From Halanaerobium saccharolyticum (GTDB lineage: Bacteria > Bacillota > Halanaerobiia > Halanaerobiales > Halanaerobiaceae), in NCBI RefSeq assembly GCF_003259895.1, contig NZ_QLME01000001.1, positions 218,819-282,818 of the forward strand: a stretch of DNA of 64,000 bases, in the 5' to 3' direction. A model generated the notes under the pieces. The model did no database searches. It saw only the letters and a list, made by a program, of their open reading frames with translations, and was not told where the DNA came from. A program made the translations under genes and the position numbers. Of the stretch, positions 52,992 through 55,436 are shown piece after piece; the stretch's first letter is position 1, and each line of letters begins with the position of its first letter.

Positions 52992-53206
52992 ATGATGAAT
53001 ACCTATATACACCTATTTATATCAGCTTTGCCTAAGTATTCTCCCAGTAAGCTAATGATATTATTAAAGTTACTGGAAGAAGAATATCAAAGCACCTTCC
53101 AAAGTTAAACATAAAAGGCTCTGTATGGACTAGAGCTTATTTTGTAGCTACTGCTGGTAATGTTAGTTCTGGAATTATCCAACACTATATTGAAAACCAA
53201 AGGTGA
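52992..53206 (+). pseudogene. tnpA: tnpA remnant (Y1/HUH transposase, IS200/IS605)
   Basis: Only the C-terminal part remains. The first frame gives YIHLFISALPKYSPSKLMIL and then a shift; the next frame continues ISKHLPKLNIKGSVWTRAYF to YIENQR and TGA at 53204-53206. The HUH motif is reduced to one His (YIHLF instead of HVHL). AGGAG precedes the ATG. It cannot be an active transposase. Confidence 0.85.
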
Positions 53207-53211
53207 TTAAT

Positions 53212-54362
53212 ATGCAATTAACCTATGTGCTGGAGTTATTAAAACCAACTAAAAGAAAAGAAAATATATTCTTAAATAATATTGCAGAAGTAGTTAAAAA
53301 TCGTCAAACTATAGCTGACAAACTTAAAGCAGGAGAAACTAAATTGAGCTCTGCTGATTTTAAAGAGATAAACCTACCTTCCTCTGTTAAAAATCAGAAT
53401 ATTAGGGAAGTTAAAGCTCTCTATAAACTATTCTTAAAATCTGATTCTGATAAAGATAATATAGAGTTCAAAGCTAACCAGCCCGTCTGCTATAATAATC
53501 AAAATTATAAGATTGATCATCATATAATCTCAATTCCCCTTTATACTACTAAATGTCAGAGATTCGCCTTTCCTGTTAAGCAGACTGAAAGGTTTGAAGA
53601 GCTGCAGCAGTATATCGATAGTGGCTGCAAATTAGGTAAAGCTAGTCTCTTCTACAAAAGAGGTAAATGGTACTTTGCTGTAACAATAAAAATCAAAAAT
53701 AAAGAAACTAGTAACCCTAATATAATGGGAATTGATATTGGACTGCGACAATTAGCTGTAGCCAGTGTTAAAAATCCTCAAGGAAAGGAGATTAATCGCC
53801 AATTTCATACTGGTAAACAAGCAGGTTTTATCCGCAAAAAGTATCGTTCATTAAGAAGAAAACTGGGTCAGTCTAAAAAAGTTAAAGTTATTAAAAATAT
53901 TAATGATAAAGAGCAGAGATGGATGACTGATTTAAACCATAAAATTAGTCGCCAGCTTATTAATCTGCTTTGCTGCGACGGTCCTGTGGGCCTAGTGTCT
54001 GCAGCGAGGCGGAAAAAGTGCCGAGCGTAAGACGGCAAGAGCAAGTTGGCACCATAATTATGGAGAATCTAGAGAATATCCGAAATACTGCTAAGAGTCT
54101 TAATAGAGCTGATAGAAACATCCACAGCTGGACTTTCTATCAATTGCAACAGTTTGTTGAATATAAAGCTGAATTAGCTGGGGTTAAAGTGGAGTATATA
54201 AATCCAAAGTACACTTCCCAGAGTTGTTCTAAATGTGCTAAAGTTAAAAAATCTAACCGCAAAGCTAATCTATACTCTTGCGAGTGTGGTAACCATATCC
54301 ACTCTGATTTAAATGCAAGCAGAAATATAGCTAATAAATATTTAGAACAACAATCTGCTTAG
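53212..54362 (+). pseudogene. tnpB: tnpB (RNA-guided nuclease, IS605 type), frame-broken
   Basis: RuvC-like TnpB with the three acidic sites: Asp in GIDIGLRQLAVAS, Glu in IIMENLENIR, Asp in HSDLNASRNIA. The zinc finger CSKC...CECG is present. The first frame runs to 54030; the second, carrying the last two catalytic residues and the finger, continues to 54362. The break is a GC-rich structured insert of roughly 75 bp, about 53971-54045, between ISRQLINL and QVGTIIMEN. The ATG at 53212 follows AAAGGTGA; tnpA remnant and tnpB overlap at that point. Confidence 0.88.
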
Positions 54363-54430
54363 ATGGTAATAGTCTAAGTGCCTGAGTGCCTATATTAGTA
54401 AGAATAATACTAGGATTATGCTATTAAGGA

Positions 54431-54484
54431 GGGCTCGATGCCCTTCATGCTAACTCAACAATGCGTTATAAAAAGGAGAGTTAG
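54431..54484 (+). repeat. Hairpin unit 1
   Basis: GGGC-TCGAT-GCCC (54431-54443), then CTAACTC (54450-54456) paired with GAGTTAG (54478-54484); loop includes ATGCGTTATAAAAAG. Confidence 0.8.
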
Positions 54485-54546
54485 TGGAATGCATAGTCGG
54501 CTATCTCAGGAGGGCTGATGGCACAGCCTAAAGTCGAAGACTTGAC

Positions 54547-54599
54547 GGTCTCGACGACCTAATGCTAACCCAACCATGCGTAATACAATGTAGGGTTAG
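54547..54599 (+). repeat. Hairpin unit 2
   Basis: GGTC-TCGAC-GACC (54547-54559), then CTAACCC (54565-54571) paired with GGGTTAG (54593-54599); loop includes ATGCGTAATACAAT. Confidence 0.8.
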
Positions 54600-54605
54600 T
54601 GAGAT

Positions 54606-54661
54606 GGTCTCGATGACCTAATACTGAAACTATCATTGCGTAATCAAAAGAAAGTTTCAGT
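54606..54661 (+). repeat. Hairpin unit 3
   Basis: GGTC-TCGAT-GACC (54606-54618), then ACTGAAACT (54623-54631) paired with AGTTTCAGT (54653-54661); loop includes TTGCGTAATCAAAAG. Confidence 0.8.
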
Positions 54662-54714
54662 GAATTGGACTACTAGAAATAGACTGTCCTCTAATCATTC
54701 GACAACCTCGTGAC

Positions 54715-54771
54715 GGCCTCGATGGCCTAATACCAAAACTATCATTGCATAATATAAAAGAAAGTTTCGGT
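54715..54771 (+). repeat. Hairpin unit 4
   Basis: GGCC-TCGAT-GGCC (54715-54727), then ACCAAAACT (54732-54740) paired with AGTTTCGGT (54763-54771), one mismatch; loop includes TTGCATAATATAAAAG. Confidence 0.8.
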
Positions 54772-55436
54772 GAAAGTTCTTTTAAGGAATCCTCGTTTGT
54801 GAGTGTTAACGAACGAGCGGGGAGGATGTCAAGATAGTCACTGCTGATATTGCTATCAATTAAATCGTCCAGCTCTTTATTCTGTCTTAAATAATATTTA
54901 AAGAAATATAAAACCATGTCACTGTTAAATACCTTAGATTCAGCATCCTGATGAAAGAGATAGCCATTATAATATTCCTGTAGTTTAGACATTAAATTAT
55001 CAATTTCAGAGTCTGAAATATCAAGGCTTTTTAATACAGGTTTAGCATACTGGCCGGATCATGACTTTCAGGACATTTAAGATTCAAATTATACTTATTA
55101 ATAAATATTTCAATCGCTTTCTGGACTTTAACTAAAAAAGTATATAATAATTCTTCTTTTTTGTTAAGATCATAATAATTTTCCAGGGTAGATAAAAATA
55201 ATGTTTTACCAAAGCGGCGCGGACGCAGAAAAAATATGTATTTCTCACCATAACTCTCTAACACTTCAATATATTTAGTTTTATCTGCGTAAAAATAATT
55301 TTCATCTCTTAATTATGCAAAACTACTGATTCCAGATGGTATTTTTATCATTTAATGCCACCACCTTCTAAATGAATTTTCTTAAATTACTTTAAGTTTA
55401 TTATAACATAAGCTGCAGAGCGGTACCAGTTAGAAA

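Follow-up and report, generated by a model that had tools for sequence, protein, structure and literature searches.

Introduction

The BOX, RUP and SPRITE sequences of Streptococcus pneumoniae are small non-coding interspersed hairpin repeats located in transcribed intergenic DNA, and they have been judged to be parasitic and slow to move (PMC3049150). Other short hairpin DNAs, called REPINs, are formed by two inverted REP sequences beside a RAYT gene, and they reach many copies in intergenic regions, where they cluster and insert into each other (PMC3116915). The small dispersed repeats (SDRs) of cyanobacteria are named in the same work (PMC3116915). The means by which the smallest repeats of bacteria move have long been an open question. 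As Elhai et al. reportedly found in 2008, cyanobacterial SDRs are only ~21-27 nucleotides in length, carry compensatory changes and insert into other repeats.

In the literature on Halanaerobium we found no description of repeats like those analyzed here, except for inserts in IS605 elements of Halanaerobium hydrogeniformans. These comprise 64-nucleotide inserts in tnpB and a 28-nucleotide insert in the right end, they form small hairpins, and they were explained by the authors as being carried along with IS transposition (PMC7290912).

The window analyzed in this study is a 64-kb stretch of the Halanaerobium saccharolyticum genome, in which an earlier note had described four two-hairpin units downstream of a tnpB gene. 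From the data presented below, it is likely that these four units are copies of a mobile, non-coding interspersed DNA repeat of ~59 nucleotides that belongs to the order Halanaerobiales.

Results

The four units reside at the right end of a decayed IS605 element, whose features are as follows.

53039..53200, + strand: tnpA remnant (Y1_Tnp; G000:C1:271857-272018)
53215..54362, + strand: tnpB pseudogene in two ORF pieces, with OrfB_IS605 and Cas12f1-like TNB domains
53965..54040, + strand: insertion (~60 nt) disrupting tnpB, with no match to the unit model
54427..54486, + strand: unit 1, 60 nt, GGNC start at 54431
54543..54601, + strand: unit 2, 59 nt, leading member of a tandem pair, GGNC start at 54547
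54602..54662, + strand: unit 3, 61 nt, following unit 2 in the tandem pair, GGNC start at 54606
54711..54772, + strand: unit 4, 62 nt, GGNC start at 54715
54792..54832, + strand: IS right end, with terminal hairpin CTCGTTTGT..ACGAACGAG and end ...GGATGTCAA

All four units are present where the earlier note had placed them, and the stem arms quoted there proved correct. Units 2 and 3 constitute one tandem pair, and the second stem of unit 4 (ACCAAAACT/AGTTTCGGT) carries a single A-C mismatch. The unit consensus of ~59 nucleotides can be written as N-GAC-stem1-TCGAT-stem1'-TAAT-stem2-RACCATGCGTWATAAAAWGAA-stem2'-GTG. Folding of the four-unit region is 6.4 standard deviations better than that of dinucleotide shuffles. 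Furthermore, a covariance model (R1) built from six short-type units, with unit 2 inside the training set and units 1, 3 and 4 outside it, retrieves exactly these four units from the window, with E values from 9e-24 to 6e-13.

The same model was used to search for units elsewhere, as had been suggested when they were first described. At least 24 units are present in this genome, for which 150 of 629 candidates were scored. Matches were obtained for 27 of the 38 Halanaerobiales genomes searched, with at least 35 units in the fullest one, and copy numbers are lower bounds. The units therefore recur both in this genome and across the order, mostly at places unrelated to tnpB. A strict exact pattern, searched in one genome per species, matches only in Halanaerobium and in one Halanaerobiaceae MAG. 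Outside the class, a 199-genome sample of the phylum yielded one doubtful match (G207), which is weak (29.5 bits) and GC-rich and is taken as chance. Searches of plasmids, phages and viral contigs with the unit gave no match, and a search of Rfam with the units gave none at the gathering score or at E values up to 1.

Most units are intergenic and lie in regions unrelated to tnpB. Arrays are found at fabG-acpP (10 genomes), at rplF-rpsH and ilvC-ilvN (both antisense) and 3′ of groEL, and also between a T-box and valS, before a TPP riboswitch, at dprA-smg and ffh-rpsP, 3′ of glgP, and in rRNA leaders, including those of 16S rRNA. The T-box, TPP, 5S and 16S assignments at unit sites were confirmed by Rfam, and the other gene names are readings of protein sequences. 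Relative to co-directional neighbors, ~15 sites are sense and ~10 are antisense, in a count for which units were merged manually into sites and those within IS or multi-copy elements were omitted. Across 12 congeners, the number of units in the rplF-rpsH gap varies from none to two. In several species, units in rRNA operon leaders sit directly before a conserved AACCTTGAAAATTAAACAG, and units also occur downstream of 23S rRNA (L053, L114, L128, L038, L025). In G005 (L046, L067, L080-L087), a single unit lies within a longer multi-copy element that has many dispersed copies and apparently terminal inverted repeats (CAGACAAATATATTTACT). Next to a unit downstream of a glgP-like gene in L015 (G000:C10:48600-49600), there are two copies of another repeat (AATTAAGG..CTGCCCTAACTCG...TTTTCTTAATTTTAT).

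Stem pairing was evaluated with an alignment of 76 units from many genomes that was fitted to the structure. In this alignment, 97.6% of stem cells are paired compared to 70.0% after shuffling, two-sided changes are evident in 11 of 11 stem pairs, and pairing in slid controls never exceeds 51%. The covariation between units that had been noticed in the window is therefore real and far beyond chance, and the covariation between homologues by which RNA families are recognized is present. The earlier note had gone further and had taken this pattern to indicate selection on RNA structure.

An RNA encoded on one strand tolerates G-U pairs but does not tolerate A-C pairs. For a DNA palindrome, G-T and A-C mismatches are equivalent because each becomes the other on the opposite strand. 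A total of 923 stem cells from 84 units (<85% identical) include 863 Watson-Crick pairs, 19 G-T pairs and 16 A-C pairs. By comparison, the acceptor and T stems of tRNAs from this genome, plus a few from relatives, contain 23 G-T pairs versus 2 A-C pairs in 516 cells (Fisher p 0.002 versus the units), in a test that is blurred by the random mismatches of both kinds in decayed copies. The excess of G-U over A-C expected of an RNA family is thus absent (19:16 in units versus 23:2 in tRNA), and the units occur in both orientations. This combination of nearly exclusive Watson-Crick pairing and both orientations speaks for a palindrome that moves as DNA rather than for an RNA under selection, and it fits DNA hairpins or template-switch palindrome repair better than RNA. 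The claim of selection on RNA structure is therefore not upheld.

Template switching is a documented one-step route to paired changes (PMC8794818), and in yeast, palindrome mutations are linked with highly transcribed DNA (PMC3820800). Since paired changes can be made in this way, covariation alone proves neither RNA function nor selection. The proposal that the units represent an independent structured RNA family survives only to the extent that they are genuine, independently recurring, structurally conserved and without an Rfam match, whereas selection at the RNA level is not supported. The units are thus unlikely to constitute an RNA family as the term is commonly used, but an RNA role may exist at some sites.

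That some of the units may be useful to the host is argued most strongly by acpP, where a host function is possible. Arrays at this gene (L035, L040, L041, L042, L060, L063, L097, L113, L124 and L126; ten genomes in two families) keep a constant distance to the acpP ribosome-binding site despite differing stems, and conservation is highest in their terminal unit. If the units were a selected RNA module, in which an intercistronic or 5′ UTR hairpin pair stabilizes or processes mRNA or tunes translation and has spread and been kept because it is useful, then one could explain why arrays stop a few bases before the acpP Shine-Dalgarno sequence in ten genomes, and similarly at valS, rpsP and smg. 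Retention of the acpP array across two families though its stems are quite different, and the copies in rRNA leaders, point in the same direction. However, we consider this explanation improbable for the family, because G-T is not commoner than A-C, antisense copies are conserved in rplF-rpsH and ilvC-ilvN, the majority of sites are absent in congeners, and copies reside in IS ends and nest in each other.

Several observations speak for units moving as discrete DNA segments. Arrays are arranged head to tail with an exact 59-nucleotide period. In a nearest-neighbor comparison, the closest match of unit 2 belongs to the fabG-acpP array of G013 (L041:1501-1558), at 95% identity, with the next best match at 85%. 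A match of this quality at an unrelated locus of another species indicates movement of one unit. Most units in this comparison group by site at acpP, valS, thi and ilvN, which indicates vertical descent at these places.

Six units are nested in another unit, and joining of the flanks by script restores the host unit with E values from 1e-9 to 1e-17. The nested inserts are 58-62 nucleotides in length (59 in four of them), five of the six have the form TGAC...GTG, and the target is the 5′ arm of the second stem after CTG or its equivalent. This fixed nesting point is used in L040/L097/L113, which share a single event through descent, and in L131, L066 and L142, of which L142 is from another family; this amounts to at least four separate cases. 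The nested units define the ends of the element, which is 59 nucleotides long and inserts without target duplication; at nested and IS sites alike, no duplication is seen beyond an ambiguity of 1-2 nucleotides. Whole units are present or absent at the same site in sister sequences, stack head to tail and nest precisely, and the same unit type is found at unrelated loci.

Some of these data could also be accommodated if a reverse transcriptase copied unit RNA into transcribed regions, in line with the 5′-truncated first copies of some arrays (L013, L014, L023) and with the many sites in highly expressed loci (rRNA, groEL, acpP, ribosomal proteins). Such RNA-mediated spread is nevertheless very unlikely, since the copies have no tail and no target duplication, G-T pairs are few, and units are found in both orientations. 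The strict sense-orientation rule that goes with this idea failed on rplF-rpsH and ilvC-ilvN.

Insertion into the host element was read as empty and filled sites from an alignment of IS right ends, with the end placed at 54832 because conservation between IS copies stops there. The unit 1 site is filled in the window and in the IS copies of G019 (L056) and G016 (L118), whereas two sister IS copies of this genome, as well as the G036 and G014 copies, lack exactly this unit. The site of units 2 and 3 is empty in the sister IS copies of this genome and in G019 and G036, is occupied by one unit alone, a relative of unit 3, in most G014 copies, and is doubly filled in the window and in L092, where the first units are unlike. 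Unit 4 is an old resident of this IS right end; nearly all IS copies have it, among them those from two genomes outside the family (L058, L062). It is precisely missing in G019 (a fragmented assembly), and three G014 copies have an extra tandem unit beside it. The ~60-nucleotide insert that breaks tnpB is unrelated to the units; it is absent in two sister IS copies and 93% identical in the G014 copy L092. An antisense unit between tnpA and tnpB of the latter copy (L092:4101-4157) is 100% identical to a unit at a G016 locus (L117:2075-2131).

The earlier suggestion that the units are an expanded omega-RNA guide scaffold of this TnpB, which gains from their location between tnpB and the right end (the usual omega-RNA place) and from the age of unit 4 in this IS lineage, can be dismissed almost entirely, because a scaffold would be a constant part of the right end found with tnpB, whereas units 1-3 are missing from sister copies whose tnpB is intact, unit 4 is missing in G019, the majority of units are away from tnpB, and the tnpB gene in the window is broken.

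Discussion

The units are a small interspersed hairpin repeat similar to REP, BOX and SDR sequences, and they display the general characteristics of such bacterial repeats in that they are multi-copy, dispersed, intergenic, non-coding, and present or absent at homologous sites. Like BOX, with its tandemly repeated boxB module, the family is built of interspersed, repeatable hairpins (PMC3049150). However, BOX is bounded by separate end modules, A and C, whereas the unit is a self-contained 59-nucleotide two-hairpin element that nests in itself, and unlike BOX, RUP and SPRITE it has no terminal inverted repeats. Nor is it a MITE by the tests applied, as TGAC at one end and GTG at the other do not form an inverted repeat and target duplication at nested and IS sites does not exceed the 1-2 nucleotide ambiguity.

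The units share with REPINs their short hairpin form, high copy number, intergenic location, clustering and mutual insertion, but the two hairpins of each unit are unlike rather than inverted copies, and 29 Y1 loci of the order lack a unit. Three unit-bearing genomes (G018, G024, G025) have no Y1 match. In a comparison with IS200/IS605-type PATEs, judged by eye only, the units have no common 4-nucleotide left flank. Cyanobacterial SDRs are likewise very small and dispersed; they differ in their reported size and in phylum. The H. hydrogeniformans inserts are also small hairpins in an IS605 right end of the same genus, but compared by description they were reported only within tnpB and have an AAGCT loop, whereas the units have another loop and occur genome-wide (PMC7290912).

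Integron attC sites resemble the units in forming folded single-strand hairpins and head-to-tail arrays that are conserved by structure. They differ in that each unit has two hairpins and no cassette; units are not found near the integrase-like gene in five genomes, and their ends lack the GTT core. By the tests applied, the units are neither attC sites nor REPINs. This genome carries an integron-like locus.

L226:9743-16000 (G000:C28:33700-40000): integron-like locus with a 361-aa tyrosine recombinase

The recombinase matches NF040815 above its cut-off and TIGR02249 with 195 bits, below its cut-off, and similar proteins are present in many Halanaerobiales. Five palindromic repeats (TATAACATGGGATT..AATCCCAGGGACGTTATA) come after it, placed between ORFs much as in a cassette array. 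These repeats are different from the units, which are absent from the locus. No moving enzyme was found at the Y1 loci of the order or at the integron-like locus.

For the mobile repeat, we propose that the unit moves as folded single-stranded DNA on which a recombinase or transposase would act in trans, and that resident copies receive it next to or within themselves, with no target duplication. The stems of the unit would be kept perfect at the DNA level by recognition of the folded DNA, by template switching between arms, or by both. At least two entries (unit 1; units 2 and 3) would have occurred into the right end of the decaying IS605 beside the old resident unit 4, and any effects on transcripts in the window, such as the presumed omega-RNA, would be by-products. 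Against this proposal, insertion is reconstructed from sequence comparisons rather than observed as an event in real time, and some sites are old, such as the acpP array, whose position suggests a host function. It is conceivable, though rather doubtful, that a shape-recognized 59-nucleotide element targets its own kind, with a recombinase inserting it directly 3′ of a resident copy (tandem) or at the fixed point in the second stem (nesting). If so, arrays would grow by self-insertion guided by structure, in a manner unlike REPIN, MITE, attC or IS200/IS605 transposition.

As far as we could find, this unit family has not been described before, and it is set apart from SDRs and the H. hydrogeniformans inserts by their descriptions. 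RNA motif discovery would catalogue the unit as a new RNA family, and therefore the G-T versus A-C mismatch comparison, which separated the RNA and DNA readings here, matters for such efforts. Strong stem covariation need not imply functional RNA. The mobile two-hairpin repeats of Halanaerobiales are a real family found across the order, which has entered an IS605 right end several times and is not a TnpB scaffold. Because nesting defines their exact ends, congeners differ in which sites are empty or filled, and arrays grow in tandem, the mechanism by which the units move becomes testable.
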